Origin: Catonia carolina
Lineage: Eukaryota; Arthropoda; Insecta; Hemiptera; Achilidae
DNA length: 64,000 bases
NCBI GenBank assembly: GCA_035578175.1
Contig: JAQMRL010000006.1
Coordinates: forward strand, 53,649,001 to 53,713,000
Direction: 5' to 3'
Shown: one piece after another, positions 1,831 through 45,313 of the stretch
How the letters are laid out: the number at the start of each line of letters is the position of its first letter
How positions within the stretch are numbered: position 1 is the stretch's first letter
The notes under the pieces: generated by a model
What the model saw: the letters and a program-made list of their open reading frames with translations, nothing else
What the model was told of the DNA's origin: nothing
Database searches by the model: none
Translations under genes and position numbers: made by a program

Positions 1831-3529
1831 CTGTCAATTTCAGCAGACATTGCTGAAATGTCTGCAATTTTTTTTCCTGCAAGTTTTCTTTCTTTCCAGC
1901 GTTAACATAAAATTTATTATGACATTGTAAATTTCCAACAATGGATATCAGATTTTTATGTTCTTCAGAAGTTTGGTGGTTAGCATATACTTCATCAACA
2001 CAAACCAACGAACATTTACAAAAACATTTAAATAATTTATTATCTGGTTTCAAGTTCATATTGTATTTATGATCAAAACTGTTAATATGATTTTTCCAAC
2101 CATGAACTTGTTTTGTCGAGTAACAACAAACGCTACAATAATTGAACCACCAATTTCTATTTCTAATTTTATTTTGGTGGAATAAAAATAATTGTAATAG
2201 TTCTTGAATACCATTTTTAATCATCTCCTTGTGATTGTTTTTATCTATATTAGCGTAGTGTTTTGAAACACTCCTGTTATTGACAATCAGTTTTAAATAC
2301 ATGTGTTCTTTTGCAGTCAAATGTTTAGAAAAAAAATCATTATCACAAAAATATATACGATCACAATCGCAAGCAAATGTTTTATTACTTGGTTTTAAAA
2401 ATTCAATACGTTTGTGATCAGGAGTAGTAAGGTGTCTATTCCAATTGGATAGCAAAGAAACCTGAACATTACAATTAGTACAGTAATTGAATATACAATC
2501 TTTAAAATTAACATTTTTCCTCTTCTCCAATATTTGTAAATTATCCAAAACACCATTTTTTAAAATTTCTTTAGAGTTGATGTTACTTAAGTATGGTTTA
2601 GGAACCAGACCATTTTTAGCGGCCAGTTTTTTATTTACTTTAACACTTTTTAAACATACTCTGTGTTCGTTACTTTGATTGTGATACAAATAAAAATCAA
2701 AACTGCAAAAGAATTTTATACTACAATCGTTACATGTATTCCATGTGAATTTCATAACCGCAAGATTAACTTTGAGATTAGTAAACTGTTCGTGCTGTAA
2801 TGAAGTGGCATGTAAATTTATTTCGAAATCCGACGCTGGAAATTCATAGTAATTACATGCCTGACAATAAAATATAATAAAAGTTTTTTCAATGTTGGAG
2901 ATTCTTCCCATAAATTTGCTGTGTTTATCTATATCTGCTTTAGAGGTTTGTTGTTTTGCCTTATTTTTCAGAGTATTTTTTTTGGGAACAATGTTACTAC
3001 TTTTAGAGCGCTTAGTAGTTGATGAAGAACTTGGCATTTCTAATGATTTCAAACCAGACTCTATTTTTATATTAGGCACACGTTGTGGTGATTTATCATT
3101 GAAGTTAAACCAATGGGATTTTTCACTAAAATGATTCAACAAATTCGAATGTAGGTCTAGATTGATTCCACAAGGGTTGCAAAAGAATGTGTTATTGTCA
3201 ACATATTCTATAAATTTGCCGAACGAGTACTTGGAAAAATATAAATTATGATTAGTCTTAATTTTATCATCAATCAAAATTTTAAATCTGTCGAAATGCA
3301 AAAAAAAATGTGATGGCTCATTTAAATGTCGACCCAGAGCTAATCTGCAATCGAAACCAATTTTACAGACTGCACAAAATAAATCACGATTACGAATGTT
3401 TTTTTGTAACACATAATGAATACAATTCTCATAGGACATCCATTTTAATAAATCATAGTTTGGCAATAACGAATCCCTAATCTCGTGACATTTATTTGCT
3501 AACTTAAAAACATCCCAGCACGATAACAT
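1831..3529 (-). CDS. multi-U1-type zinc-finger exon, paralogue with broken 5' end
   Basis: Paralogue of the first coding exon of the 26-45 kb gene. The open frame from the internal ATG at 3529 to the conserved donor (CAG then GTAAGT, exon end 1831) encodes about 566 residues. All eight fingers keep their ligands, for example FCAVC...H-x5-H first and the CxC-x5-C-x7-H-x5-H type sixth and eighth. The linker between fingers 2 and 3 is about 50 residues shorter than in the partner. Upstream homology continues to an acceptor at 3743-3744, but the partner's ATG codon is TTG here (3688-3686) and an in-frame TAG lies at 3565-3563. It must either start at the internal Met or be a young pseudogene. Downstream exons are not visible in the window. 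Residues read past 1831 are intronic. An RNA-binding role is only inferred. Confidence 0.7.
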
Positions 3530-3742
3530 ATTGCAAAATTTTTCAAAAGTTTTATTTAAACTCTATTTTACATCAACTGGTCTATCATTAGGATTTGTAC
3601 TTTTTAATTGTATCAGTAATTTATCAAAATCACTCAAAGTTTGTTCTAAAAAATCTCTATTAATTATTTCTGATTGTTGACAAGCCAAATGTTAAAATTT
3701 CACTTCTCATGTAAACAAATAACCAATTGGTTGAAACATGAC

Positions 3743-17191: not shown

Positions 17192-17252
17192 GACTACCTA
17201 AATCCTGAATCTCTAATACTTGGTAGCCGTGATCAGAGAGCTCTGAACCCCT

Positions 17253-26097: not shown

Positions 26098-26179
26098 CAT
26101 AATCAGAACTTACGAAAGGCAATTTACTTCACTAACATCTTCATCTTCATAATCAGAACTTACGAAAGGCAATTTACTT
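26098..26179 (-). repeat. 50-bp tandem duplication at the 3' end of exon 6
   Basis: AATCAGAACTTACGAAAGGC occurs at 26101 and 26151. Each unit contains TTTC followed by GTAAGT on the minus strand. The second unit shifts frame and supplies the stop codon. Confidence 0.9.
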
Positions 26180-27853
26180 TTAATTTCTTCAAGTCGTTGA
26201 GAAATAATTAATTTTAAAACGTAATGTTCAATCGATTCTAAGTGACGCGAATAAAAATTTTCATCGCATATTAAAGTAATGCAACAATCGCACTCGTATA
26301 TTTTGGTGTCTTGATTAGAAATAACATTATTATTATGAGTATTACTTCTTACATGACGTGTGTACACAGATTCTCTGGTTTCAACAAAATCGCATGGATT
26401 ACATAAAAATAAATAACGTATTTTAAGTCCTTTAGTACCACACATCGTATCGAAAAATAATTTCTTACAAATATTCACTATTAAAGATTTAAATTCTTTG
26501 TTAGAAACATTATTTATGGATGGTTCAAATTCTGATTTAACTTCTTCAAAAATGTTTCGATTAAATTTTTTATTTTGGATATTCAAATGAATGTAAGAAT
26601 ATAAAAAATCAACATTTTTATGTATTTTCGTGGTTGTATGATATGAATAAAATGCATCATTACAGAATATTACTGAGTTACAATGACAACTATGAAATTT
26701 CATATCTAAGTCAGAAATTGAGTTTTTCTTATGATCTTCACCATCAACATGTTGTAACCATTCAAGCTGGTTCGATTCAATATAATTACAAGGAAAACAA
26801 AAAAAAATATAATATCCATTTAATTCTAAAACATTTATGTCGTCAATTATACTTTCAAAAAAGTTATCAATTAGTACAGAACTCAACTTATAATCCATTT
26901 TTTTTAACAATTTTCTTTCAATGTGATTTACTGAAGTATTGCACTTAGTTTCGTTGACATCTACATTTCCAGAGTCTTGATCGGTCTTGATGTTCATTAA
27001 TTTTTGTTGAATAATATTTTTTAGTGCTTTATGTCCATCAGATATTTGATGTTTACAATAAAAATCTTGATTGCAAATGATCGAGATACCGCAATCACAA
27101 TTATATTGTTTATAATCCGGTTCTAAAGTTTTGTTGTATTTATGAGAATAATTTTTTAAATGGTTTGAACAACTGTTATTTTTTAATAAAGATTCTACGC
27201 ATAAACAACAAAATAATCCATAGTTTATTTTACTATCTGTTGTAGAAGATGCGATTGTAATTCTTTCGATCACATGTTGAATGTGATTGTATAGACCAAC
27301 AGTATTATTATAAAAATCGATTGATTTTATTAAATCGCTTGAAACCGATACACCTACATTCGGATTTTGTTCGCCAAAATTAATTTTTCCAGTGGTGATT
27401 TCTAGTATTCTAGATGAAATAACATTTTTTAATCTATCATGTTCTTTTGATATTTTATGAACTGAAAAAAATATATCATCAGATAAGATTGTTGTGAAAC
27501 AATCACAAAAACGTACCTCACATAACAAGTTCGAAACTTTATTTTTATGCTTAGATTTATTAATATGAATATTCCAATGATTTGATTGTTTAGCGGTGAA
27601 GTTACATGGGACACAACAAAATGCATATGTTTGATTACGTACATCAATTCTTGCTGGTTTGTCTGTGTAAAACTGTACGAGTTCATTGAAAATATCTCTG
27701 AAAACATTAACGATGGTAATATTAGACAGATTAACGACTCTGTATTTTACAGTACGCTTTTTTACACAACCTTCAGATTTCTTCAACTCAATTTTGTAAA
27801 ATAAATCCTTTATTAAAATTGTACTTGTTTCGTTACCAAAATCAATTTCTGTC
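26110..27853 (-). CDS. zinc-finger/RRM gene, exon 6: C-terminal eight-finger array
   Basis: Starts after the acceptor TTTTTTCCAG (AG at 27855-27854). The one-base overhang joins exon 5 in frame (AG|G gives Arg). The first 60 residues or so complete the RRM-like fold. Four pairs of fingers follow. The first of each pair is C-x2-C...H-x5-H; the second is CxC-x5-C-x7-H-x5-H, for example YNCDCGISIICNQDFYCKH. In the first pair's second finger the third Cys is Ser. The stop is at 26112-26110 and a minus-strand AATAAA follows at 26095-26090. A GTAAGT donor also lies about 60 bp before the stop, so a further exon is possible. The upstream TTG at 27786 is not a start; the exon is internal. RNA or dsRNA binding is inferred from the U1-type fingers plus RRM. 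Confidence 0.85.
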
Positions 27854-27973
27854 CTGGAAAAAATAAGAAGTTAAATATTATTCGTAATAAAATTTTTAAA
27901 TAAAATATGACTGTCTTCCAAGTTTTTTAAAATTTGCAAAATAATAAATAGTTTTTGGTTGAAAAAAATACCG

Positions 27974-28780
27974 CGCTTCTCAACAAATTTGACGTATAGG
28001 GAAATTAACATTGGATAATGTACTGTAAAAATTAATTTTATAACAAGGGTGTAATCGTACTTTTATTACTCCAGTTGTTTGAAAACGGAATAAAAATGAG
28101 TCTACAAAAGATTTCAATAGCTAATAATTTAATTATTTATAAATGAAGGTAAAAACGTTATTAAATTTTGATATAGCACAATACTTACATAAGAAAAAAA
28201 TTTCGCACGCATTGTTCTTTGAACATTAGCCAGGCATGTGAAGTGGTTAGTTAATTTTTACTTTTGATATTACCATACGAGGGGCCGTGAGTTTGAATCC
28301 TACATGCACATGCACACACACACACAAAATTAAAAACTTTTTTTTTGCTAAATAATTTGTTGACTTACTGAAATAAAAAAAACTTTACTAGTTAGTTATA
28401 TTCTGTTGAATTAAAAATTACAATATTATAATTTCAAATGTTTTTCATTATTTAATTAATAATAATTAATGATCAAATAATTAAAAATTAAATAAAAAAG
28501 TTTCAATATGTAGCATTCAAACTCACAGCCTCTCGTACCGTAATATCAAAAACTAAAATAAACTGACCACTTTAACGCTATATTGAAATTGAAAAACACT
28601 CTGGCCTTTATTTATTAATAATTAAATTATTAACTATTAAAATATTTTGTAGACTCATTTTTTATTCTGTCTCCTAATGACTGTAGTAATACAAGTAAGA
28701 TTACACCTTTGCAATATGACTAATGTTGACAGTACATTGTCCAATTTCAATTTCCCTACACGTCAAATTTGTAGGGAAGA
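27974..28780. repeat. foldback element in intron 5, arms of about 300 bp
   Basis: Left arm 27974-28305 is the imperfect reverse complement of right arm 28506-28780. Terminal motif CAAATTTGACGTATAGGGAA. The loop is AT-rich. The nascent gene transcript would form a long hairpin here. Confidence 0.8.
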
Positions 28781-28788
28781 ATGGTATA

Positions 28789-29693
28789 CGAAGAGTGGCT
28801 ATTAAATAACAAGACTGACGATGTAAAAAATTATATTTTTATTTTATACATAATCGCTTATTGTCACCTTTAATATACACTCCTTCTCTATCCCTTCAAC
28901 ACTCCATGCGAATTTTCCATTGTTGGAAACAGTGCTGGAAGTCATCTTCTATCAGAGGACACCTGCCGCTCAAAAATGTTTGTACTGACACTTTGTACCA
29001 GATTGAAAATGACCCAAATTTTTTGGAAACGATCATAACATGTGATGAAACGTGGTTTTTTACTTATGATCCGGAAACAAAGCGCCAATCCATGCACTGG
29101 AAGAGCCGAACTTCACAGAGAGCCAAAAAAGCTCGAATGAGCAAGTCAAAATTTAAAGCAATGATGATTTGTTTTCTTTGATATCCCTGGGATTGTGTAC
29201 CTTCATTGGGTTCCTGAAGGTCAAACTATAAATCAATATTACTACCTTGAGGTACTTTCTAAACTTTCAAAGAGTAAGGAAAAAACGCCCCGAAATGTGG
29301 AAGGACAAATCGTGGGTTCTCCATAAAGACAATGTGCCAGCTCATTCCGCGTTATCTGTCTAGAGGTTCCTAGCCAAGTACAGCATCTCAGTGTTAGAAC
29401 ATCCACCTTATTCACCAGATCTTGCACCATGTGACTCTACCTGTTCCCTAAGGTGAAATCTGAATTAAAAGGGACAAGATTTGAATCTGAGGAACCTGTA
29501 AAAGAGAAAGCGGCACTTGTCCTGAAGGAGGTGACAGAAGATGACTTCTAGCACTGTTTCCAACAATGGAAAATTCGCATGGAGCGTTGTAGGGATAGAG
29601 AAAGAGGTTATATTGAAGGTGACTGTAAGAGTGATTATGTATAAAATTAAATTTTTTATAACGTCAGTCTTGTTATTTAATAGCCACACCTCG
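28789..29693 (+). mobile_element. mariner element D, palindromic deletion derivative
   Basis: Ends CGAAGAGTGGCTATTAAATA and its complement, with TA on both sides (28787-28788, 29694-29695). The first 185 bp or so are an inverted copy of the last 180 bp, so the normal 5' end and transposase N-terminus have been replaced by the inverted 3' end. It is 905 bp. Confidence 0.85.
28930..29460 (+). pseudogene. mariner transposase fragment (element D)
   Basis: Keeps the first catalytic Asp in TCDETWFFTYDPETKRQS and, after a frame change near 29180, INQYYYLEVLSKL. Degraded second and third Asp regions follow (HSALSV, HPPYSPDLAPC). The helix-turn-helix N-terminus is absent. It is inactive. Confidence 0.8.
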
Positions 29694-30000
29694 TATAAGC
29701 ACATTGCCATATAAAATTATAAATAAGTCAGTAAAATTGCATTATTGTACAAGGATTTCAAATTTTTGGACTATTTTCGAACATGTAATTTTGAACCATT
29801 ATAACTAAAGTAAAAATGAAGCAATTTTAGCGAAATTTTAAAAGAAGTAAAGCTTGTATTCTTGTAAACTTTCATGAATTTTTTTAAAAAATGGCTGAGG
29901 GATGAGAGTAGGAGATAAGAAAGATTTGAAGCTGGTGTTTGGTTGTTGTTTACCGCATATCTAGGGTTAACATTTTAGTTCAATAAATTAAAGTACTTAC
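29694..30000 (-). other. remainder of intron 5
   Basis: AT-rich intronic sequence ending at the exon 5 donor (AAG|GTAAGTAC, GT at 30000-29999). No feature is recognised. Confidence 0.6.
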
Positions 30001-30115
30001 CTTGAAAGAATAAGTAACATTGCTAAATTTGGATGACACTTTTTTAAATATCTAATTTGTCCTAGATGTTCAAATGCTTCCGATATTTCATCTTCCATTA
30101 CATCAGGTGGCAGAC
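30001..30115 (-). CDS. zinc-finger/RRM gene, exon 5: core of the RRM-like domain
   Basis: A 115-bp exon between acceptor TTTTATTTAG (AG 30117-30116) and donor CAAG|GTAAGT. Two leading bases complete a Gly codon with exon 4 and two trailing bases join exon 6. It encodes LPPDVMEDEISEAFEHLGQI then RYLKKCHPNLAMLLILS: end of strand 1, helix 1, strand 2 and the start of strand 3 of an RRM fold. The aromatic residues usual in RNP1 are not obvious, so RNA contact may be non-canonical. It is too short to be found as an ORF. Identification rests on splice sites, phase and fold pattern. Confidence 0.82.
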
Positions 30116-30276
30116 CTAAATAAAATACTGAAAGTTATTCACTACAAAGTTATAATCCACACTGTGATAAAAAATTTAATGTGAAACACTCACACAACTT
30201 TCTTGTGCTAATGAAAATTATGAAAAATACAACCTAACATTAATAATAAAACATTAGAAATAAAAAACATAAACTA

Positions 30277-30911
30277 ATTTTAATTGAAATATATATTTCT
30301 AACCACCAGAATACGGTAACTTGAAACACTTACCAATGTTTATAGCCCTTTCGTGTATCTTGTACACATCTTCAGTAAATTAAAATTTTTTACGTCAAAA
30401 TTTAAAACTTCCTGCTCCTACCATGGTAGATAAGGAATAGTCGATTCTTATATTTAAAACAGTCTTGCCAACTTAATCAATTGATTGTCATATTCAATCT
30501 GTGTGTTCATTAATTTATCCCTGTTATTGTATTTATAAATATAAATTTTTCCAAAATTTCAATTTCATTTTGTCTGTAAAATATTATTATTATTTCATCT
30601 GTAAAATATTATATTTATAAATACAATAACAGGGAAAAATTAATGAACACACAGATTGAATATGACAATCAACTGATTAAGTTGGCAAGACTGTTTTAAA
30701 TATAAGAATCGACGATTCCTTATCTACCATGGTAGGAGCAGGAAGTTTTAAATTTTGACGTAAAAAATTTTAATTTTCTGAAGATGTGTACAAGATACAC
30801 GAAAGCGCTATAAACATTGTTAAGTGTTTTATGTTACCGTATTCTGGTGGTTAGAAATATATATTTCAATTTTAAATAATACGGCTGTTTAAAATCTTAC
30901 ATAGGATGTTT
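30277..30911. repeat. foldback element, arms of about 270 bp
   Basis: Left arm (about 30285-30545) and right arm (about 30598-30880) are near-perfect reverse complements, with shared CTACCATGGTAG and CCACCAGAATACGGTAA. The outer right end is ACATAGGATGTTT. A shorter relative is at 52.67-52.99 kb. Strong hairpin potential in intron 4. Confidence 0.9.
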
Positions 30912-32127
30912 GAAAAAATAAAAACAAATTTTAATCACGAGTGAATAATGCAAAATGAAAACCAACCTTAGGGTAAGTGCACAGTGAACACTGGTTGCTT
31001 ACAAGTGGGAGCCTGCTAATAGGAATAGGCCATTATATTTTAATCGGACGTCTCACAGTAAACGCTGGTGGAGAAAGCTGCGCGCTGGTCATTTGCGCCT
31101 ATCAGCTCATTGGTTTGTTTTGAATAAACCTGCCTGCTGCTTGCTGGCAGGTTGCTAAATGTACTTGGCGTCGTATAATACATATTCATAAATAATAACA
31201 ACTTGTTAATTAATTTTTAACAAATGTTTATAAAACTAACTTTAAAAGATTATTACTGGCCACAATTACGGGGTAGTCAAAAAGTTCAAAATATGTTTAA
31301 AATATTCAAAGTAATCACAAATCTTTCTGCCGGTAATATTGGTTGCTTGTACAAGTTGCACCATTGTTTTTGAAAACAAGTTCTAGTTTAGACAATATAA
31401 AATTAAACGTTTCCAGAGTCATTCTCATGTATTTAAAATACCTATCTCTATCTTTTTTTAATTGTGGAAAAAGATAATTAGGCCGAACAATTTTCTGTTC
31501 TTATTAACACGTTCAGCACGGATGCCACCTTAAGGCGTCAAATCGAGGTTCATTCCAGAGACGAATGACGCCTTAAGGCGTCATATACAATACCACATTT
31601 CTATAGCTTTTTATAAATCGCTGGTATACTGGCAGTGATAGTAAAGGTTGTTAAGGGGTTCAGATCTATTCTACGAGCGCCACTGTGAAGATCGTCTTTC
31701 GTTACCAACTGCCGGGAATTTTTGACGAATTTTTTAAATTGTAGTCTATTCGAACGTCCTAGTGCCGTGTAATTTTATTGTTTTATTTAATTATATCAAT
31801 TATTCTACGAATTTCTTCGTTTCCAGTGACTTCTTTACAAATAAAACGTAAGAATAATACATTTTTACGTAAAAATAGTTTAATTATTACTCAAAAGAAA
31901 AATTTCTGTTACTTTCTGAACTCGCGATTTCTATGCACTGTGTTTCTTTTGCAGGTTTTTGTGTTTTTATAAAGTAATAAGCTTTATTACTACTGTATTA
32001 CTTAATTATTTAATGTATTTTATTTATTTAAATTTTTTGAATTAAATAAACATAACATAACATAACATGTTTCATTATCAAACATAATTGTATTTTTCTA
32101 TTTTACACAAGACAATAATTTTCATTT

Positions 32128-32665
32128 TTTTTTTTTAGGCCCTCATTGGAGCAAAATTAATCGATTTATAGAAGATCCCTAGTTGTTTCTCCTATCCGCC
32201 CAGTAGTTCTTCATCCTTTGCGACACTCTCGCCCTATCCTCCACAGTCCAATGTCTGTTTGTCTGCCTTTTAGGTACTTCTGGAAATTTCGTGTTTGGAT
32301 TTTTGATCTTATATCCTTCTTCTCTGTTCAAAATCTGTGTCTCTGAGATATCCAGGTCCTGCAGATCCTGTTGAACTTCCTCAAACCAGGCGTACTTGAC
32401 TTTGGTTCTCAAAAAGAAATCCAGTACCTGTCTGGTAAATCTGGATTCTGGCAGTCTCCTAAGATGTCCAAAGAACCCAACTCTTCTCTTCCTCATTATC
32501 TCTGAAATTTCCTCATTTTCCCTGTATAGAACCGAATTTGGCAACAACCTATACTCATTGTCTACTCTGTGCTTTTTGTTTATTATTGTTCTGAGGATTC
32601 TTCTCTCTGTCTTTCTAAGGTCCTCCATCCTCCCACAGTGCCTCAACCTGCCCAAAGTCTCACAC
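32128..32665 (-). mobile_element. 5'-truncated LINE inside the piggyBac-like element
   Basis: A T-run at 32127-32138 is the poly-A tail of a minus-strand LINE whose C-terminal coding end follows. The 5' end is truncated near 32665. Confidence 0.8.
32179..32655 (-). pseudogene. LINE ORF2 C-terminus
   Basis: An open frame of about 158 codons: TERRILRTIINKKH, then IMRKRRVGFFGHLRRLPESR, a common C-terminal region of RTE/Jockey-type insect LINEs (R-R-I-L-R ... F-x-G-H-x-x-R). It then becomes basic and ends YWADRRNN. The reverse transcriptase and endonuclease are missing, so it is a remnant although open. Confidence 0.8.
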
Positions 32666-34064
32666 GTTTAATAATAATTTATTTAATAATTTATACGTAT
32701 TAATTTTTCTAATAACTAAAAAATGAATTTCAAATATAAATTTCGTAGAAACAACAAACGTGTATAATACCGTACTGTATTTAGCCGGTGAGTAGATGAG
32801 CAAATAAGTAAGATCGTTCCGGGGACGAATGACGCCTTAAGGCGGCATGGTATTTTTTCACTGCAATGGCGGGTCGGCACAGCGAAGCATCCGTGATTCC
32901 AGCCGCCGTGCTGAACGTGTTAATGGTATAGTCTTTAAATAATAATAATTTTGTGGAAACGTTTTCCATTAGAAATAATTCATCACTGCTGCTACTGGAA
33001 CTCATATTGAATACAGACAGCTGAATGAAGGTTAAGAGCGCGCGTAGTTACATGCTCCCACTATGCGCGTTCGCCATCGTGAATCAGTACCTGCGACCAG
33101 CATTCACTGTGTACTTACCCTTAGTTTGGCTTAATAATACAGAAAATCACCCTGACACTAAAATAGGCTCTGTAGAGAAAAATGCTTTAAATAAAAGTTG
33201 TAGATCTTTTAATTTCCTATAAATTTGATTATATACATTTTTGTTGTATAATGCATACTAAGGCTGAAATCTTTCAAAAATCAATCACAGTAAACGCTAG
33301 TGGAGAAAGCTGTGCACTGGTCATTTGCGCCTATCAGCTTACTGATAGGCGCAATTAATTTAATTGTACCTATCAGTGAACTTTCTCTTTTTCTTGAGAA
33401 AAAGCACGTTTTCTTGAGAAAAAACAGAAAATCGCTAATTACCGCTAAATGACGCATTATACAAAAAAATGTTTGAAATAAAAGTTGTAGGATTTTACAT
33501 TCTCTACAACTTTAATTGAATAAACTTTTGTGCTAAAATGCATATTAAAGCCGCAATCTTAAAAAAACAATTTTTTTACGTGAAAACAGCCTCACCAAGA
33601 ATTTCAGCAAACATGGCGCCTACTCTATCTTGTAAAGCATAAAAAAATGTAGTAAACGAGGTAATTTAAAAAAAAAAATCATTATTTTTGCGTTTTTGAG
33701 AAAATCGCAAAAAAGTGAAAAATTACACGAATAAACTACTACTTCTGGTTGACCGATTTTGATGAAATGTTCGTGTTGGGTCTGGAAGTGGTACGTAATT
33801 TAATTTTTAAGTTTCAAGTTCGTACGATGTTCCGTTCTTGAGATATTCTGTTCACACACACACAGACCAATCGCTAAAAACATGTTTTTTGGGTTCAGGG
33901 GGTCTGAAAACATGTAAATCCGGTGAAAACTCGATTTCAAAAAATCAACATGAAAACAATACTTTCCTTCCTATATATTCATATAGGCAAGAGAAAGTAT
34001 AAAAGAATTTAACCGTACTAGAAATATTAAAACTTGATTTAATTAGGCCAATATTGGTTTTTGT

Positions 34065-34200
34065 AAGTTTATTTTTTTATGTCGCATCTACAGCTCTATT
34101 AGCGACTACCCTGGGATTTAACTTGGGAAATTCCCAGACTGTAGCCAGGAATCGAACCCAGGACCTCCGTATTGCTACCACAATACTATAGAGGAGGCTT
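34065..34200 (-). repeat. tRNA-derived SINE remnant
   Basis: The minus strand has box B-like GGGTTCGATTCC and the same AGTCGCTAATAG...GATGCGACAT 3' motif as the SINE at 13.96-14.16 kb. Confidence 0.65.
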
Positions 34201-34680
34201 AATTATATTGTATTACACTAAAAATATATGATTATAATACCGATTTACAACTCAAATAATATCATCATTTATACAATAATGATAATATATTATAATAATA
34301 AAACTTCCATCATCATTCAAAGACATGTTGCAAAACGATGAACTACGCACGCGCTGCACAAAATAAAAAATTTGTAGGTTATAAACAAACTTAGTAAACA
34401 TACGTTAAAATAACCACATACAGGAAATAAAACTTTCGAGAAGCGCTTTAGTGGTGTATTTTACAGCTAAAAATTTAAAATAATGTTTATAACATAAGAA
34501 ATGTCGTCCATTTACGTTCAATCAGTTAATACAACGTGAGGAATTTGAAGACGCCAAATGACGGGATTCGCAAAACAGAAAAATTTCATGACTATATCAA
34601 TAAACAGGGTCAGCAGCAAAATTTGTTAACAAGAAACAATAGTAAACGATCCAAGCAGCAGAAATGAAGTTCCATAGACC
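34201..34680. other. intron 4, nothing recognised
   Basis: AT-rich and without repeats or ORFs that I can place. Confidence 0.5.
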
Positions 34681-34935
34681 TGTTAAAGGATGTCCGAAAC
34701 AAGACCACATAAGGAATCAGGTGAAAAGAGAGAAATGTGGAACGAACCACTAAATGAGCTCTTCACAAAATATAAAGGACAATGGACAAATCATTTATTT
34801 AGAATATCACAAGACCTTTGAGTGCATGGCTTTATGAACCAAGAAGCACAAGAGAAGTGGGGAGACCAAGGAAGAGATGGACGCTGGAACAGGCTCAATT
34901 ACAGCATAATCCATGATGGACGACGATTAAAGTTG
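34681..34935 (+). pseudogene. degraded LINE C-terminal remnant
   Basis: The plus strand reads with shifts as a KGQWTNHLFRISQDL-type segment followed by a Gly/Arg-rich RPRKRW-like end, the usual C-terminus of RTE/R1-type LINEs. It has several stops and lies just downstream of exon 4 on the other strand. Confidence 0.5.
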
Positions 34936-35000
34936 GGTGGTTGCATAGTTGAAATTGTACTGTGCTACTTAAATTTTAAAAGAAAAAGATGATAAATCAC

Positions 35001-35377
35001 CTTTTATTTCAAACCAGTACCTTGAGACAGGTTTACTTTTATTATTTTTGTTCCCTGAATTTGTTTCGGGATCGTCATCTTCATCATTATCATCATCATC
35101 ATCATCATCGATTTGTAACCGCTCATGCTCAATAACTGAGTCAGCTGGAGCATCATCACTGATGCTAGATTTTACTGTATTTCCATCATCATTGGAACTA
35201 CGGCCAGTTCTCTCACTTCCACCATGTGATTCACAATCCGTAACCCAATTATCATCGTCATCATCTTCATCAACATCATCAGAATTTCCTTCATCATGTG
35301 AATGTAATTCCATTTTAGAGGGCATGCCTTTTAAACTGATTTTAACATTGTCATCCGCTTCCGAACCAGAAAAAGAT
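35001..35377 (-). CDS. zinc-finger/RRM gene, exon 4: acidic segment and first RRM strand
   Basis: Starts after acceptor ACATTTTTCAG (AG 35379-35378). Its first base completes Lys with exon 3. It encodes SFSGSEADDNVKISLKGMPS, two runs of Asp/Glu (one coded by a GAT repeat at 35085-35112), Ser-rich stretches, then KSKPVSRYWFEIKG. The chosen donor AAAAG|GTGATT (GT 35000-34999) keeps frame with exon 5. The alternative CAAG|GTACTG at 35021 would put a stop into exon 5. FEIKGLP across the junction fits the first RRM strand (RNP2). The acidic part is low complexity and probably disordered. Confidence 0.82.
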
Positions 35378-35399
35378 CTGAAAAATGTTAGGTTTGTAA

Positions 35400-36300
35400 C
35401 AATTTAATGAATCATAAAAATTACAACTATACTAAACTTCTATTACCATGTTCAATGCGGCCAGGTGTAAAGTCATTCGCTATGACGGAGCAATCTTTCA
35501 ATGGTAAACTGGCTTGACGCCATTATATTTGTATACAAAAATGTAATTATTTTTGCAATACTTAATACTTACATTTAATTTTGCGTAATTGAGTAATTGT
35601 AACGCACGTAATGTCATAAAATAAATTTTTATATTACTACTACGATTAGAAAACAGAAAAATTGTGTAAATGCTTAATAAGTTTTATAATGCTCATAAGT
35701 TTTCTTATGTGATTATAAGAATGTAGATGAAATAATATATAAAAATATTTCATTAAAAACTAATCATTTATTAATGACAAATAAAATTGCACGGAAAACT
35801 TCAAACTGAGTTGTAAATATATCGGTTTTTAAAATTCTGTCAAAAAACCCGTGACATCTGTTCAAGAATTAATCGCTTATTGGCATAGAATGAATTTTTC
35901 TAGGACAGCACAATAACAGAAATACTATTCATCCTAACTGAACAACGAAAGAAGAGGTAATAAAATATAGACGGGCCATAGTTTTGTGTTCGCCAATCAC
36001 TTGGTAGTGTTCGATAAACCGCATAAATGTGCCCACCGCACTGAACGCATTTAAGTCAGATTTTTCTAATTTGAATCTCAAGGCATCAATTCTTTTTCAT
36101 TGATTTAGGAAGGTTTCACTTTAGAAGTAAAATACTGGAATTCAAAAAATGTGGATAAAATTACACGATTAAACACAAATGCATATTATTCCTTAGTATT
36201 AATCTTATGTTTTGTTTTATACAGTAAGAATACTGTATTTTATTTTAGAAAATAACATTACCTACCCATAAAGGGTAGACTATTATTTAAGGAACTTCAA
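35400..36300 (-). other. intron 3, nothing recognised
   Basis: AT-rich sequence without identifiable repeats, ORFs or splice-bounded exons. Confidence 0.5.
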
Positions 36301-36309
36301 TTGCTTACC

Positions 36310-36587
36310 ATCCCTTCTTTGTAAATTTTTGGAGTGACATTGATTTTGATAAAATTGTTCGTGTTGGGTCCGATAGCGGTATCTAACTGAGTTTCAAGTT
36401 TCAAGTTCGTGCGATGTTCCGTTCTTGAGATATTCTGTTCACACACACACAGACCAAACGCTACAAACATGTTTTTTGGGTTCAGGGGGTCTGAAAATGT
36501 GTAGATCCGGTGAAAACTCAATTTTGAAAAATTGACATGAAAACAATACTTTCCTTCAAATATATTCACATAGGCAAGAGGAAGTAA
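36310..36587 (+). repeat. 3' part of a GGCAAGAGAAAGT element
   Basis: Collinear with 38.04-38.32 kb, including GTTCCGTTCTTGAGATATTC, a short CA run and the terminal hairpin, with GGCAAGAGGAAGT at the end. The 5' part is missing. Confidence 0.8.
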
Positions 36588-36664
36588 AAAAGAGCTTAAG
36601 ATGGCTAGAGACCTCTAAAAATTCTTGCAGACTTGAATGAATGTGTGTACAGTGATCTGGCAAT

Positions 36665-36802
36665 TCAACTAACTTCGAACCATTTTCATGCGGGTTATTT
36701 TAGTAGATCGATGTGCGATTGAATTATGTACTTCAGGTGTTATAACTTCTTGACATGTCCAATACTCCCTCGGGAGTCTCTTGGACACAACAAAAAAAAA
36801 AA
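36665..36802 (+). repeat. LINE 3' tail
   Basis: TTCAGGTGTTATAACTTC...CTCGGGAGTCTC and an A-run at about 36789-36800 match the 3' end of the 14.9 kb LINE in opposite orientation. Confidence 0.7.
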
Positions 36803-36938
36803 TGAACCAGCCTCGTCGGTACTGATAATGCAATACCTTTTCTTTAAAACTCACCAACTCTGAGTTGATTCATAAATAGATCCCAAAAAAATTAATTAAA
36901 CTACAGAAAATATAAGTATAATACAAATTAAATCTTAC

Positions 36939-37041
36939 TTGTCAAGAACCTTAGCAGTTAAATTAGGCTCAACAATGTTTCGAGTAGCTCCATTTTGTGT
37001 TGAAGCTGTCGGAATTTCCTCTATAGTATCAGCTTGAAGAT
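36939..37041 (-). CDS. zinc-finger/RRM gene, exon 3: short linker exon
   Basis: A 103-bp exon with acceptor GGTTTCCAG (AG 37043-37042) and donor GACAA|GTAAGA (GT 36938-36937). It joins exon 2 (G|AT gives Asp) and exon 4 (AA|A gives Lys) in frame, and is open only in that frame. It encodes LQADTIEEIPTASTQNGATR and NIVEPNLTAKVLD, a Thr/Glu-rich linker with no recognised domain. It cannot be found by ORF length. The call rests on splice sites and phase on both sides. Confidence 0.8.
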
Positions 37042-37361
37042 CTGGAAACCAACAAATTATAATTACTTGTTGTTTGGGTCATCAGCTGAAAGGCTGTTTT
37101 GAAACTCTCAATGCTTTACTAAGTAAAACGGGGAATGAGGTGGTAGCGGTGTCTTCTTCATTGCGTGGAAAAGTATGCATATCAGCATGACGGGCCCTCT
37201 CAAAAGCATCTACTTTCCACCTTGCTAATGACAACTTCACTTCACTCACCACGGGGTTTGGCTGTATAATAAAATTCATTACTCTCAGAGGAGATAACTC
37301 TGAATGTCTACCTCTTCTGTCCTTAAATGCTCCAGTCAAATAATTGGCTGACCATATGATA

Positions 37362-38323
37362 AAAATCTGGTGTGAAACACTCACACAACTTTCTCTTGCC
37401 AGTGCAAATAATTAACAATAAACCTAACATTAGTAATAAAACATAAGAAATAAACAAAAAACTAACCTCAACAAACATAACCTAATTTTAATCATGAGTG
37501 AAAGACGCAAAATGAAAATCAACCTCAGTTTGGCTTAGAAATACGGGAAATCACTCTTTCTCTCTAAACTAGGCTCTGTAGAGAAAAATGCTCTAAATAA
37601 AAGTTGTAGATCTTTTAATTTTCTATAAATTTAATTATATACACTTTTGTCGTAAAATGCATACTAAGGCCGAAATGTTAAAAAAATCGATTTTTCTCAC
37701 GTTTTCGTGAGAAAAAAAAACAGAAAATCGCAAATTACTGCTAAACTAAGCGTTATACAAAAAAATGTTTGAAATAAAAGTTGTAGGTTTTTAAATTCTC
37801 TACAACTTTTATTATATAAGTTTTTGCGCTAAAATTTATATTAAAGCCGTAATCTTAAAAAAACAACGTTTTTACGTGAAAACAGCCTCACCGAGAATTT
37901 CAGCAAACATGGCGCCTACCCTATCTTGTAGAGAATAAAAAATTGAGTAAAATAGGCGATTTTAAAAAAAATCGTAGGACCAGTTTTTGAGAAAATCGCA
38001 AAAAACTGAAAAATTATACGAATAAACTACTACTTCCGGTTGACCGATTTTGATGAAAATGTTCGTGTCGCGTCCGGTAGTGGTATGTAACTTAAGTTTC
38101 AAGTTTCAAGTTCGTACGATGTTCCGTTCTTGAGATATTCTGTTCACACACACACACACACACACAGACACACACACACACAGACCAATCGCTAAAAACA
38201 TGTTTTTTGGGTTCAGGGGGTCTGAAAACGTATAGATCCGGTGAAAACTCGATTTCGAAAAATCGACATGAAAACAATACTTTCCTTCCTATATATTCAT
38301 ATAGGCAAGAGAAAGTAAAAAAC
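37362..38323 (+). mobile_element. GGCAAGAGAAAGT element, full-length copy 1 (Helentron-like candidate)
   Basis: Starts TCTGGTGTGAAACACTCACA and ends with hairpin CCTATATATTCATATAGG then CAAGAGAAAGTAAAA. A 13-bp subterminal inverted repeat (ACTTTCTCTTGCC / GGCAAGAGAAAGT) lies inside both ends. The left end also forms the hairpin GTGTGA-aacac-TCACAC. A CA microsatellite (38143-38182) is internal. It has no coding sequence. Confidence 0.78.
38143..38182. repeat. CA microsatellite
   Basis: Nearly pure CA repeat inside the mobile element; it is much shorter in the other copies. Confidence 0.95.
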
Positions 38324-38777
38324 AGAACTATTTTTTGTAGCCCTGGAACTATCAAGTGCAAATAATTTAACACTTCACCTGCCTGTTATGGGCATAAGTA
38401 TTATTCATTACAGTAAAACAATTATTAAAAGGAAAAATGTGCAAAACAAAACTTAAAGAGCCTCTAGTTTCAAAAATATCCAACAGAATGCAGTATAAAT
38501 TGAAGCAAGTCATTCAAAACAAACCAACGTTATAATAATCCTAATTCCAAATATTACTCTATTGAGTAATAATACCAAAGACACAAGGAGTACTCATGCT
38601 TTGGTCACCAGGACTATTTAAACCAGTCAGGCTCAGAACTCAAAAGTGTTAAATTAGGGTTACAAAGCCATGATGTTGATATTTTTATTTCAGTTGCAAC
38701 CATGAAAAAGTATTTAATATTAATTGACTCAACACAATTCTGTGAAGAGTTTGGCAAAAAATCAGACGAAGTTAAAA

Positions 38778-39695
38778 AATCTGGTGTGAAACACTCACAC
38801 AACTTTCTCTTGCCAATGAAAATAATTGACAATATAAGCTAACATTAGTAACACAACATTAGAAATAAAAAAAACCAACCTCAATAAATATAACCTAATT
38901 TTAATCATGAGTGAAAGACGCAAAATGAAATTTAACCTCAGTTTGGCTGAAAAATACAGAAAATCACTCTTTCACGCTAAACTAGGCTCTGCAGAGAAAA
39001 ATGCTTTAAATTAAAGTTGTAGATTTTTTAATTTCCTATAAATTTTATTATATACACTTTTGTTGTAAAATGTATACTAAGGCTGAAATCTTAAAAAAAA
39101 TCGATTTTTTTACACAATTTCGTGAGAAAACAACAGAAAATCGCTAATTACCGATAAACTAAGCGTTATAGAAAAAAATGTTTGAAATAAATATTGTAGA
39201 ATTTAAATTCTCTACATTTTTTGTAATATATACATTTTTGTGCTTAAGTGCATATTAAAGTCGCAATCTTAAAAAAAATATTACGAGAAAACAGCCCTAC
39301 CAAAAATTTCAGCAGACATGACACCTACCCTATCACGTAGAGAATTCAAAATGTAGTAAATGAGGTGATTTTAAAAGAATTGTAGGAGCCGTTTCTGAGA
39401 AAACTGCAGAAAAGTGAAAAATTACACGAATAAACTACTACTTCCAATAGACCGATTTTGATGAAAATGTTCGTGTCAGGTCCTCTAGTGATATCTAACT
39501 TAAGTTTCAAGTTCGTTTGGTGTTCCGTTCTTGAGATATTCTGTTCAGACACACACAGACCAATCGCTAAAAACATGTTTTTTGGGTTCGGAGGGTCTGT
39601 AAACGAGTACATCTGGTGAAAACTAGATTTCGAAAAATCGACATGAAAACAATACTTTTCTTACTGTATATTCATATAGGCAAGAGAAAGTAAAA
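38778..39695 (+). mobile_element. GGCAAGAGAAAGT element, full-length copy 2
   Basis: Same ends as the 37.36 kb copy. Sequence on either side (…GAAGTTAAAA and AGAAGTGGTGAAAGAACA…) is continuous at about 1.69 kb in the duplicated block, which gives the empty site and shows any target duplication is limited to the A-rich TAAAA. Confidence 0.85.
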
Positions 39696-40250
39696 AGAAG
39701 TGGTGAAAGAACACAACCCTACTTCACCCCTTCGATGTACAACCAGGGTCACTAATACTATTATTACTGAAGGAAATTTGTTAATTTCATAGAATCAGGG
39801 TTTCCTTATAAATTTTAATGTTTATTTACACGTTTATGTGTGCTAAATCCGAACCTGCAGTTAATTTTGCGTGTAAATCATTACATTAATTTATACGTGG
39901 TTTTTTATTGTTGACCGATGTCCTCAGTTTCCCACAACTTTTTAATTTACGAGGTTATATTTAGTATACTATACTTACAAATTGTAGGATGCAAGTTAGT
40001 TAATACTGATTGACAATAAACAAATACTGAACAAAAAAAAAAGAAATTAATTAGATTTTCGCACAATTTAACTGCTAAACTCTTCACCATATTATGGCAC
40101 GGTGTAATGATGTCATAGACTACAGCCCGATTCACAAAGAAAGCACCCGTCTTTAAACAGTAATATCTTTTGAACCGTTGTATGTAAAAACAATTACGAT
40201 ACATCAAATTAAAGCTCGTTTTATAGGTGGTAATAGGATCACATTAATAA

Positions 40251-41002
40251 AGGGCGATTCAAAAAGAGCGCCGGTTTTTAAACGGCTGGTAAATTTTTGT
40301 TTATTGGTTGGCAACATTGTTTGACCTCATTTCTATTTTGGAGAACATTCCGATTGACGATTCAGTTGTAGTTTCTCTTGTATGCACAGCGAGTGACAGT
40401 TTGGTGCGGCTTTTGGTCGGGCGGTGTCATCGGCCCTTACTTTTTTGAAAATCAAGAAGGACAAGCCGTGACAGTAAATGGAGACCGATACCGTACGATG
40501 ATTAGGGAGTTTTTGTGGCGTCATTTGGATGGAATGGACATTGACGAGTTGTGGTTTCAGCAGGATGGTGCCACCTGTCACGCTGCACGAGAAACAATGT
40601 TGTTGCTCCGTGAACGGTTCCAGGATCCCATCATTTCTCGTAATTCCAACCATCAATGGCTACCAAGGTCGTGTGACTTGACGCCTTGTGACTTTCCTCT
40701 TTGGGGTCATCTGAAGTCATTGGTGTATGCCAATAAACCCCGAAACATCAATGACTTGAAGGAGGAAATTCGACGGGTTATCGGGCAAATGGAAGTCGAA
40801 ACTTGTCGTGCAGTAATATCCAATTTCATGGACAGAGTTGATGCATGCCAGCGCAGTAGAGGAGGACACATGCATGACATCATTTTTCATACATAAAATC
40901 GGAAGGCAAGATGAACTTGTTGATGTATTTATTTTCAGTTTTTCAATAAAATAAATCTCTTAATTTGATAAATCAAAACCGGCGCTCTTTTTGAATCACC
41001 CT
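40251..41002 (+). mobile_element. short DD41D transposon between 87-bp direct repeats
   Basis: TIR AGGGCGATTCAAAAAGAGCG and the complement AGGGTGATTCAAAAAGAGCG. The 87 bp at 40163-40249 recur, apparently identical, at 41003-41089 directly after the element. It is 752 bp and lacks the transposase N-terminus. Confidence 0.88.
40378..40899 (+). pseudogene. DD41D transposase, C-terminal catalytic half
   Basis: Open for about 172 residues: VTVWCGFWSGGVIGPYFFE, second catalytic Asp in WFQQDGATCHAARET, third in RSCDLTPCDFPLWGHLKSLV, then the C-terminal INDLKEEIRRVI region. Exactly 41 residues lie between the last two Asp. The DNA-binding domain and first Asp are deleted, so it is not autonomous, although this part has no stop. 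It differs from the transposase at 51.3 kb and so belongs to another DD41D lineage. Confidence 0.88.
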
Positions 41003-41213
41003 ATATCTTTTGAACCGTTGTATGTAAAAACAATTACGATACATCAAATTAAAGCTCGTTTTATAGGTGGTAATAGGATCACATTAATATATAATACTTA
41101 TTAGCCCTATACACTCTAAAGTACGCGTGAACAAAGTAATAGTACCTTGAAGTTGGGTATACTGGAAAAGTGGTTAAAAACAGGGTACTTTATGTGTAAT
41201 TCGTTATATTTAA

Positions 41214-41756
41214 CCCCTTGCCGGTTCCCAAGGGAATATAACGTCGCACCGATAATGCACGATAAAGGCCGCTGACGGAATATTACGTCAGGAGTTTTTG
41301 TCCCATTTTATTTTGTTTTGTGTCGGCTTATTACGTCGATAGCATTAAGTATTTCATTTCACTGTCTTTCACAATGATATAGAGCGCTAGTACGTAGCTT
41401 AAAAGTAGTCTACGAATATTATCACGAACGCGAAGTGACATTGTCGCTAGTTACGGTGGTCCATGTGCTCGAATAACCTATAAATGTTAATAATTATTAT
41501 GTAAATAAAACAATTATGGACTAATATTTTATTTTATGGACTTACAGACTTTATTTCAATAATACAACATTAAGATAGGTTAGGTAACCTATCTACCTAC
41601 CTTGTTTTAAATTATGAATAAAATATATTTTACATGCAAAAATGTTGCTTTTAATATCATATTTGGTCATAATTAGCTGTAATAATTGTGTTAAAGGCAA
41701 AAAAAATAAAGCAAAATAGTATTCATTTCTGAAAAAAATAATAAACCGGTAAGGGG
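41214..41756. mobile_element. piggyBac-like MITE
   Basis: Ends CCCCTTGCCGGTT and AACCGGTAAGGGG, flanked by TTAA (41210-41213, 41757-41760). It has no ORF. Confidence 0.85.
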
Positions 41757-42302
41757 TTAATACAATATTAATTTCCAAAAATATTAATATATCATGTAAC
41801 CAATAATAAAACAAGCTTTAATTTGATGTGTCGTAATTGTTTTTACACGCAACAGTTCAATAGATATTTGTGGTTTCTCTCGTGAATCGGACTGTAGTAT
41901 AAAGTAAATATTGTGAACAGGTTATCGGTTAGAATGTGCAAATATCTAAATAATTTCTCTTTCTTGATTAATATTTGTTTATTTTTGATCAATATTAACT
42001 AACTTGCATAGTAAAGTTTGTAAGTATAGTCTACTGAATATAATAGCGTAAATTAATAAGTTGTGGGAAACTGAAGTTACGTTGGTCGACAATAAAAAGA
42101 AAGTGTTTACAGTTGAGCCATTGTTAGTTTGCTCCTACTGTCAACAAACAAAAGCCACCTACTACAGGGTGCACGTTAGAGTCTTTGACTTTACGGATGT
42201 CGTATTCCTATTAAGTTAACAATTTTTTAAATTATAAGTACTTGAAGTACTAAAAACATCACTCATGATATAATGTAGGCCTAACAATTTCATTTAGAAA
42301 AA

Positions 42303-43050
42303 TACTTTTAAAAGTATTTTGTATTTAAATACTTTTGAAAGTATTTTGTATTTAAATACAGGGGCTCCTCAACTTACGAACATAATGCGTACCGACCGAG
42401 TGTTCGCAAGTCGAATTGTTCGTAAGTCGGAATACACGTCAGTAGATTTCGTAGCGGACACTAGCGACCTAATTGCTTTTCATAACGTACAAAAACTAGC
42501 ATACTTAGTGAAATTGTAATCAGCAACTAAATAAAGATAAAATCTGTTAAATTTTTTTATTCGTTTTTAATATGTAGGCCTACTTATAGTAACTTAATAC
42601 ATACTGTATATACTTTTAGCAACTGAATACAGTTAACACATAAATACATTGAATACTTTATACAGAAAGAAAAGACCATTAAAAATAAAAAATAGCAAAA
42701 ATAAAAAATAAAAAATAAACATTTTCATAAAAATTTAAAACATATTGAAGATGGTTTTACAATATTTACAGCTTTGGCTTTGTTTGAAAAAAGTTTTGAA
42801 TGGATGTTTGAACTGTTACAAGTTTCTTTTCTTCCAAAATAATTTTGTAACACATGACAGCTCTAAACTCATTGACCGCTCTAAACATTGTTTGGAAACT
42901 TTGTTGTAATTACATTCCAAATAATATCAAGTGATAAAAAAAAATAGTTTCTGGCGTTCGTATCTCCGGATGTTCGTAAGTTGAATGTTCGTAAGTCGAG
43001 GACCCACTGTACTTTTGAAAGTATTTTGTATTTAAATACTTTTGAAAGTA
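42303..43050. repeat. 27-bp minisatellite split by a Tigger-like MITE
   Basis: About four copies of a 27-bp unit (ACTTTTGAAAGTATTTTG plus TATTTAAAT). Two lie before and two after the insertion at 42359-43009. Confidence 0.88.
42359..43009. mobile_element. Tigger/pogo-like MITE
   Basis: Starts CAGGGGCTCCTCAACTTACG and ends with TTCGTAAGTCGAGGACCCACTG, with TA duplicated (42357-42358, 43010-43011). TGTTCGTAAGTTGAA-like subrepeats occur at both ends. There is no transposase. Confidence 0.85.
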
Positions 43051-43329
43051 TTTTGTTGTTACTTTTTAATCAGCGTGTACACATTTTTATATAATGCGCA
43101 TGCTCAGTGACGTCATTATTTGTTTACATTAGGAGCAAACTAAGAGAGGCTGGACTATATACATAATTGCAGAGTGATTTGTGGGCAAAATTAACCTCAG
43201 ATTCCGATTTAGCACACATAAATGTATAATAAAATATTAAAATTGGTGACGAGCCCTGATTCTATACAATTATCTGAAATTTATGAACAAATCTTTTGTT
43301 TTATAGGAATCTACGAGAAATAAACTTAC

Positions 43330-45313
43330 CTGTCAATTCCAGCAGACATTGCTTCAAGTTACTGTTCTTTCCAGCGTTATCATCAAATTTATTATTACAA
43401 GGTAAATTTTCAACAATCGCTCTTAGATTTTTATGTTCTTCAGAAGCTCGGTGGTTAGTATAAACATTATCAACGCAAATAAAGGAACAATTACAACCAC
43501 ATTCAAATAATTTATTATCTGGTTTCAAGTTCATATTATATTTATGATTAAAACTGCTAATATGATTTTTCCAACCATTAACTTGTCTCGTCGAGTAATA
43601 ACAAACGCTACAATAATTAAACCTACAATTTCTATTTCTAATTTGTTTTTGGTGGTATAAAAATCGTAATAATTCTTGAATCCCATTTTTAATCATCTCG
43701 TCGTGGTTATTTTTATCTCCATCGGATGCACCTCGTTTTGAAGCATTCAAATTATTGACAACCAGTTTTAAATTCATGTGTTCATTTGAAGCCAAATGTT
43801 TAGAAAACAAATCATTATCGCAAAAAAATATACAATTACAATCACAAGCAAATATTTTATTTTCTCGTTTTAATGATTTATTATGTTTATGATCCGGAGT
43901 AATAAGGTGTTTATGCCACTTGGACAGCGAAGAAACCTGAATGTTACAATTAATACAGAAATTGAACATACAATCTTTTAATTTAACATTTTTTCTCTTC
44001 TCCAATAGTCGTAAATTATGCAAAACACCATTCTTAATAATTTCTTCATAATTGACATTACTTATGTCTGGTTTAGGAACAATTTTATTAGGGACCGGTT
44101 TTGCATTTACTTCCGAAACACTATTTAAAAGTACTCTGTGTTCGTTACTTTGATTGTGATACAAATAAAAATCGGAACTGCAAAAAAATTGTACATTACA
44201 GTTGTCACATCTATTCCAAGTGAATTTCATAAACATAAGATTAACTTTGAGTTTAGTAAACTGTTTGTGCTTTATTGATGTGGCATGTAATTTTATATCG
44301 AAATCCGAAGATGAAATTTCATAATAATTACATGGCTGACAATAAAATTTAATAGACGTTTTATTAACATTAGCGATTCTCGCCATAAAAACTCTGTGTT
44401 TATCTTTATCTACTCTAGAGGTCTGTTGTTTTTCCTTATTTTGCGGAGTATTACTTTTTGGAGCAATTTTACTACCTTTAGAAAACTTAGTTGACGAAGA
44501 ACTTGTCATTTCTAATGATTTCAAACCAGGCTCTATTTTCAAATTACGTTCTGGTGTTTTATCACTTTCAGTTTTTGTAATTCTTTGAGAGTTCTTAGTA
44601 TCCTCCTTAGTTTGATTTTGTTCAGTTTTCTTTTTTCTTTTCGTTAGTTCCGATAACTTATCAGATTCATCGTTAACGTTGTCATTTGTTACCGTATTAA
44701 TATCAATAAATTTAAAATTGGCTACTTCATTGAAATTATCCCAATGGGATTTTCCATTGAAATGATTTAACAAATCTGAACGTACATTAATTCCACATAG
44801 CTTGCAAAATAACGTGTTATGGTCGACATATTCTATAAATTTGCCGAACGAGTATTTGAAAAAGTATAAATTAGGATTATTCCAAATTCTATCATCTATC
44901 AATTTTTTAAATCTGTCGAAATGCACAAAATGTGATGGATCGTTTAAATGCTGACTCAAGACTAATGAAGTACAATCGAAACCAATTTTACAGACTGCAC
45001 AAAATAAATCCTGGTTACCAGTACTTTTTTCTATCACATAATGAATACAATCCTCATACATATATTTTAATAAATTATCGTTTGCCCATAACGAATTGTT
45101 TATCTTATAAGGATTATTTTCAAACTTGTTAAAAACATCCCAGCATGATAACAAATTGCAATATTTTTCAAAAGTTTTATTTAGACGTGATTTTACATCA
45201 ACTGGTATATCATTAGGATTCGTACTTTTTAAGTGTATCAGTAATTTATCAAAATTACTCAAAGTTTGATCTAAAAAATCTCTATTCATTATTTCTGAAT
45301 GTTGACTAGCCAT
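43330..45313 (-). CDS. zinc-finger/RRM gene, exon 2: start and N-terminal eight-finger array
   Basis: ATG 45313 (MASQHSE) is preferred over the in-frame ATG at 45340 because homology to the paralogue begins there. The exon acceptor is CTGTTTCAG (exon starts 45368) and the donor is CAG|GTAAGT (GT 43329-43328, phase 1). It encodes 661 residues plus one base. An N-terminal region of about 100 residues has no known domain. Finger ligands, numbered from the upstream Met, are C114/C117/H131/H137, C179/C182/H193/H199, C334/C337/H352/H358, C378/C381/C387/H395/H401, C462/C465/H478/H484, C499/C501/C507/H515/H521, C577/C580/H593/H599 and C614/C616/C622/H630/H636. All have the H-x5-H of U1-type fingers. 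A Lys/Ser/Thr-rich linker of about 135 residues separates fingers 2 and 3. Residues read past 43330 are intronic. Confidence 0.88.

Follow-up and report, generated by a model that had tools for sequence, protein, structure and literature searches.

A tandem family of zinc-finger and RRM-like genes in Catonia carolina, probably derived from a terminal uridylyltransferase

A sixteen-finger gene with an RRM-like centre

What kind of protein arranges sixteen zinc fingers around a fold resembling an RNA-recognition motif (RRM), and from what did it arise? The question is raised by a stretch of 64,000 nucleotides of the hemipteran Catonia carolina (contig JAQMRL010000006.1, forward-strand positions 53,649,001 to 53,713,000; hereafter the window), in which an earlier note had joined five minus-strand segments into one large gene (copy A). 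The gene belongs to a set of six or more related copies on this contig, its relatives lying in two regions (copy counts from the genome search are lower bounds). In two of the copies, far1 and farB, the RRM is followed by a dead-looking nucleotidyltransferase of the TUT1/Tailor kind. Zinc fingers followed by an RRM therefore match the order of a known enzyme family and are not, as had been proposed, an isolated arrangement outside any known family. We hold with moderate confidence the joint claim that the window gene genuinely codes for protein and belongs to a multigene family, that this family descends from a terminal uridylyltransferase, and that the window product is an enzyme-less RNA binder. 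The earlier observation is confirmed, and its interpretation is supported in part.

Joined and translated, the five segments (1984, 103, 377, 115 and 1744 nt) gave a single frame of 4,323 nt, that is 1,440 codons and a stop, with a stop at the end only. All four junctions have AG before and GT after, with phases 1, 2, 1 and 2, exactly as first described. The 16 U1-type fingers, the RRM-like centre and the acidic segment of that description were recovered as well, the last as an exon 3 linker in which 39 of 124 residues are Asp or Glu. In window coordinates, the parts are as follows.

43330..45313, minus strand: exon 1, N-terminal domain and fingers 1-8, with an end resembling RRM strand 1, QCLLELT(G), phase 1
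43433..45001, minus strand: first finger array, fingers 1-8, residues 105-627
36939..37041, minus strand: exon 2, 103 bp, cassette member, in phase 1, out phase 2, GT-AG borders
35001..35377, minus strand: exon 3, cassette member, acidic linker and a second RRM strand 1, RYWFEIKG, at its end, donor GTGATT
30001..30115, minus strand: exon 4, RRM core from helix 1 to strand 3, in phase 1, out phase 2
26110..27853, minus strand: exon 5, RRM end, fingers 9-16 and stop
26224..27615, minus strand: second finger array, fingers 9-16, residues 940-1403
1832..3688, minus strand: exon 1 of a neighbouring copy, copy B, 70% amino-acid identity to exon 1 (421/602 aligned)

The open frames of 661 and 581 codons, at 33% GC, were counted as not due to chance, and an AATAAA lies within 20 nt 3' of the exon 5 stop. 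The exon 1 donor, GTAAGT, is kept in copy B; the donor of exon 3 is the exception among otherwise strong-looking borders. We counted candidate internal exons within the locus under one fixed set of splice-site rules. Entry in phase 2 left 2 of 306 candidates of at least 300 nt open, each of them starting from the acceptor at 35377 (ends 35001 and 35037). Entry in phase 1 left 17 of 473 candidates of 50-700 nt open. Exon 2 is the weakest exon of the five-exon model. Some 55 nt before the exon 1 ATG, copies A and B share a conserved acceptor, which suggests another, non-coding exon upstream. The N-terminal domain of exon 1 (residues about 9-212) is matched in the distant members of the family.

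The fingers form eight pairs, and 14 of the 16 fall into seven homologous units of about 100 residues. Alignment of the seven window units with three units of copy B left exactly eight invariant columns, C C H H C C H H. The spacing H-x5-H is present in every finger (16/16), together with C-x2-C in ten and C-x-C in six. The two arrays had been thought to mirror each other; exon 1 and exon 5 arrays are homologous (best E 6e-17), and we therefore read them as direct repeats rather than mirror images. From this similarity, the second array may have been derived by copying exon 1 units.

Distant members carry a dead-looking enzyme part behind a homologous front

Three distant members lie on the same contig: far2 at 7.40 Mb, and far1 and farB, head to head, at 7.75-7.83 Mb. 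Exon 1 of all three is homologous to exon 1 of the window gene (E 2.8e-47, 6.6e-26 and 8.9e-20) and ends in a similar RRM strand before the donor. In far1 and farB, the order is zinc-finger array, RRM, nucleotidyltransferase and PAP-associated region. Their RRM-end exon is entered in phase 2 and left in phase 1; by eye, it fits in frame onto the exons with GSRATGLADADSWFDVFVDVG and CRIYFCDRIVVINTELI (far1), and two exons with PAP-type motifs follow. Since order, strand and phase agree in two copies (the last two junctions excepted from the phase check), we infer that all of these exons belong to one transcript.

In a PDB search, the joined catalytic part of far1/farB matched Drosophila Tailor (E 2.5e-12, query 62-319), TUT7 (8.7e-7) and TUT1 (about 0.03). 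All four joined exons were needed, as PDB searches with single nucleotidyltransferase exons or with the first two joined returned chance matches only. Pfam NTP_transf_2 and PAP_assoc stayed under their cut-offs in this part. Aligned with Tailor, far1 keeps the second catalytic Asp and has Trp and Arg in place of the first and third; the farB sequence has the same residues at these positions. The third Asp of Tailor is the position mutated in one Tailor chain, and a D343A mutant is described (PMC6326804, in excerpt). The far1/farB catalytic domain looks dead, yet is under purifying selection (omega 0.39, 0.27-0.56, over 310 codons).

The sole database relative found was a protein of Lycorma delicatula named "terminal uridylyltransferase Tailor-like" (36% identity, E 4.1e-45), in which Leu and Lys replace the first and third catalytic Asp. 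With two of three catalytic Asp missing, the protein is probably less active than its automatic name implies. Provided that the genes are orthologous, replacement of the same two residues means that catalysis was lost before the split from this fulgorid planthopper.

The third distant member, far2, carries exon 1 and the RRM exon, and no trusted nucleotidyltransferase match was found in the 30 kb examined there. One nucleotidyltransferase-like stretch (E 0.017-0.042), interrupted by a stop, was counted as chance.

From the domain order of far1 and farB and the match of their catalytic part to Tailor, we conclude that the family probably descended from a terminal uridylyltransferase of the TUT1/Tailor type (zinc finger, RRM, nucleotidyltransferase, PAP).

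The window gene continues into fingers instead of an enzyme

The window gene shares with TUT1/Tailor the trait of finger(s) followed by an RRM. Past the RRM exon, where far1 and farB continue into the enzyme, it completes the RRM, adds eight further fingers and then reaches a stop. A Pfam scan of the 1,440-residue model listed neither a nucleotidyltransferase nor a PAP-associated domain. When the nucleotidyltransferase exons of the distant members and the Lycorma protein were searched against 124 kb around the window copy, no match was better than E 0.4, a negative that leaves room for a very diverged or more distant enzyme copy; the PAP-associated exon of the distant members had no match in this cluster. 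The same Pfam scan, at E up to 5, did not list the DZF domain, which we take to define the ZFR (Zn72D) family. No database homologue was found at E 0.001 with the full model or with exon 5, and no description of this family showed up in literature searches.

The N-terminus of the Lycorma protein had been suspected of matching the beginning of exon 5; this was rejected, shuffled sequences having scored as high in 1,630 of 2,000 trials for copy A, 1,634 for copy B and 1,220 for copy C.

The RRM-like core and an optional cassette

Three exons supply the RRM, with exon 4 lying between the tail of exon 3 (or of exon 1) and the beginning of exon 5; the Pfam scan found no other RRM stretch in the window protein. 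The RRM_1 score was 15 bits within the whole protein. For the isolated spliced domain of the five-exon form it rose to 21.5 bits, above the cut-off of 20.7; the isolated form without the cassette reached 19.8 bits, just under the cut-off. A PDB search with the RRM gave chance-level matches only (nucleolin, 0.039).

Exons 2 and 3 together measure 480 nt and form a phase-neutral cassette. We sought them in the other copies, including copy B, and found none. The ends of exon 1, QCLLELT(G), and of exon 3, RYWFEIK(G), share phase 1, and either can be read as strand 1 of the RRM. Direct joining of exon 1 to exon 4, which is also in frame and gives 1,280 codons, is therefore legal, and the five-exon splice path is one of two equally legal models rather than the unique path first proposed. 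What stands of that assembly is the grouping of exons 1, 4 and 5: copy B has all three, and the phases of the RRM exon, 1 in and 2 out, are the same in 6 of 6 copies examined. Copy C, upstream of the window gene, has a similar layout. Its exon 1 ends ECWLEIKG, a later exon ends YYKFKITG (phase-2 entry, by eye), and a mid exon has the entry and exit phases of exon 3 (again read by eye). The acidic cassette probably adds a linker and exchanges the first strand of the RRM, being spliced in or out.

RRMs usually hold, at the RNP2 position, an aromatic residue that stacks on RNA. In our register, this position is without an aromatic in copies A, B and C and in far1 and farB, and for this reason we call the window domain RRM-like and not a proven RNA binder. 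The same feature, together with the large acidic linker of the cassette form, would suit a core that serves as a protein-interaction hub, with fingers folding mainly around protein partners and binding little RNA. We consider this a serious alternative but an unlikely one, as the class of the fingers and the origin of the family point to RNA, and the zinc finger-RRM unit of human TUT1 directly recognises RNA, reading U6 RNA (PMC10415362, in excerpt).

Tandem copies change fast and keep their zinc ligands

Copy B lies directly downstream of copy A; its exons 4 and 5 are past the left edge of the window, and the exon order 1, 4, 5 is kept. About 18% of bases differ between A and B in aligned exons. 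Their indels come in threes (4/4 in exon 5, 13/13 in exon 1), the exon 1 donor and the exon 4 borders are kept, and exon 5 of copy B is open, with 69% identity. Omega between A and B was 0.67 (0.50-0.88) for exon 1 and 0.75 (0.55-1.02) for exon 5. Cys and His were preferentially retained, at 48/56 versus 369/605 other residues in exon 1 and 44/53 versus 346/528 in exon 5. Copy B has lost its start ATG and has one in-frame TAG in exon 1, so it may be decaying or may start further in.

Copy C comprises an exon 1, a one-pair exon, an exon 4 and two near-identical exon 5s, both open (Ks 0.034 between them; omega 0.84, 0.47-1.84). These last exons stand in tandem within 53,716,587-53,722,367 of the contig, and each ends in an acidic tail and a stop of its own. 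This layout suggests either two terminal exons used as alternatives or a duplication that is very recent. Between exon 5 of copies A and C, 34/53 Cys and His were kept versus 141/528 other residues, with both frames open; only 6 of 14 DNA gaps are in threes, which we attribute to the alignment at Ks >1. Overall, the comparisons suggest a fast-evolving tandem family under weak purifying selection.

The whole cluster could also consist of decaying pseudogenes under little constraint, as might be read from the lost ATG and in-frame TAG of copy B, from omega values of 0.67-0.75 with an exon 5 interval reaching 1.02, and from the wide interval of the copy C pair. However, copy A runs through 1,440 codons without a stop, the A/B indels preserve the frame, and the zinc ligands are retained even against copy C, where other residues are mostly changed. 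We regard the pseudogene explanation as distinctly unlikely.

The fingers are of the U1/JAZ type

By their spacing, C-x2-C ... H-x5-H, the window fingers are U1-type or JAZ-type, below the cut-off of the curated JAZ family. Pfam listed only zf-C2H2_REST and RRM_1 in the window protein. Of the profile searches that the earlier note had proposed, the one for the RRM succeeded with the isolated domain, but zf-C2H2_jaz was not listed, and in a distant member it scored 9.7 bits against a cut-off of 22.6.

AlphaFold2 models of one unit of the first array (pLDDT 81) and of the last unit of the second array (pLDDT 78; two beta-beta-alpha fingers) structurally matched JAZ ZF3 and a chain of the U1 snRNP best, with low Z scores. 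JAZ ZF3 tops the VIA list for both models; several low rows of these lists are unrelated proteins (protein G, a Fab, designed proteins). A Foldseek search with the unit 8 model gave no match at E 0.001 and 54 matches up to E 10. A profile of the fingers weakly matched TUT4 and TUT7, and the fingers of CTCF and REST were also among the weak matches.

Fast-changing tandem C2H2 clusters are typical of DNA-binding zinc fingers. The window family is such a cluster, and with CTCF and REST among the weak matches it might comprise sequence-specific transcription factors instead of RNA binders. We give this little chance, given H-x5-H in all 16 fingers, 14 of them in helix-containing paired units, the JAZ and U1 snRNP structural matches, the RRM in the middle, and two relatives with an RNA 3'-end enzyme part. 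An RNA-binding role for the window protein is, on this evidence, fairly probable.

A very improbable alternative is that exon 1 and exon 5, with eight fingers each, are two separate genes, exons 2-4 being chance or part of one of them. In its favour, the frame of exon 1 meets a stop about 9 codons beyond its donor, the junctions are predicted from sequence, and one copy C exon 5 has a Met at residue 33, which weakens our argument from late Met. Against it, the first Met of exon 5 comes at residue 286 in A, 229 in B and 146 in the other copy C exon, the RRM spans the junctions and its exon 4 has identical phases in 6 of 6 copies, and copy B retains exons 1, 4 and 5 in order, so that the one large gene first proposed still stands.

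Comparison with known systems

TUT1 (Star-PAP, U6 terminal uridylyltransferase) likewise has a zinc finger directly before its RRM, and far1/farB follow the TUT1 order further, with nucleotidyltransferase and PAP-associated regions behind the RRM. Unlike TUT1, the window gene has 16 fingers rather than one, a second array after the RRM and no detected nucleotidyltransferase, and far1/farB are without two catalytic Asp and match TUT1 itself only at E 0.03. In excerpted reports, human TUT1 without its zinc finger-RRM unit loses most activity (PMC5467268), and in Drosophila duplication of TUTase6 (TUT1) gave rise to Tailor and Monkey King, which shed the RNA-binding domain, the latter also the PAP domain (PMC5509036). 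Tailor, the closest solved relative of the far1/farB catalytic part, is active without an RRM, whereas here the enzyme seems dead or missing; the losses seem opposite to those in Drosophila, the binding part having been kept and multiplied.

The Lin28-interacting module of TUT4/TUT7 also combines a U1C-type finger with an inactive nucleotidyltransferase, in TUT4 as an RNA-recognition module; as excerpted, it differs in having one finger and in being joined to a second, active enzyme module (PMC6488673). Aedes Q17D57, a Dicer-2 partner with a lineage-restricted Tailor-like C-terminus and an unrecognised N-terminus, is comparable by description only, as a lineage-restricted insect Tailor-like protein; the excerpted source reports no fingers for it (PMC7411624).

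JAZ/ZNF346 and U1C-type fingers share the C-x2-C ... H-x5-H spacing and the beta-beta-alpha fold, but the window fingers are paired, the second mostly C-x-C, with a preceding helix, and are accompanied by an RRM. In Matrin-3, RBM20 and ZNF638, U1-type fingers flank the RRM(s), with two RRMs and two fingers. The likeness to the window protein, compared by sequence through our Pfam and PDB scans, lies in this flanking; the Matrin-3/RBM20 type has tandem RRMs and the window protein one RRM stretch.

A proposed route from RNA tailing to RNA binding

Taken as a whole, descent from a terminal uridylyltransferase and conversion into an enzyme-less binder of structured RNA is the explanation we favour, at somewhat better than even chance. 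The window protein would bind structured or double-stranded RNA, with the first finger pair and seven units, each a helix plus two fingers of the TUT4/JAZ/U1C kind, gripping the RNA on both sides of the RRM-like hub, and the phase-neutral acidic cassette, spliced in or out, would swap the first strand of the RRM. The gain and decay of tandem copies, together with weak purifying selection and the retention of zinc ligands, point to a role in fast-evolving control of RNA, in which the protein might compete with or redirect RNA tailing, or restrain transposon or viral RNA. In its fullest form the proposal is tentative and rather less likely to hold than not: a uridylyltransferase lineage may have lost catalysis and then the whole enzyme, and been rebuilt as a two-armed, 16-finger clamp on structured RNA with a cassette that swaps an RRM strand, giving a receptor family in an RNA arms race.

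A single genome seems to show stages of one family, from zinc finger-RRM-nucleotidyltransferase genes that have lost catalytic Asp and are still selected to tandem copies with fingers in place of the enzyme. This makes it directly testable whether an enzyme that tails RNA was turned into a protein that binds it, with parallels in the domain-losing Drosophila duplications of the same enzyme (Tailor, Monkey King) and in the inactive half of TUT4/7. The cassette may offer a naturally swappable RRM strand.

Mobile elements near the cluster

A transposase-like stretch in intron 1 of the window gene (window 40248-41006) is 98% identical to one in an intron of copy B. As the gene copies themselves are about 82% identical, this stretch appears to have moved or been copied after the A/B duplication. 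Between copies A and B, a reverse-transcriptase-like open frame of 734 residues (window 14993-17723, minus strand) has an endonuclease-like frame just upstream; we take the two to be a fairly intact retrotransposon of the non-LTR (long terminal repeat) type. At the other side of the gene, open frames on the plus strand at 54046-54720 and 55866-56339 are presumably GIY-YIG-like and piggyBac-like C-terminal, respectively.

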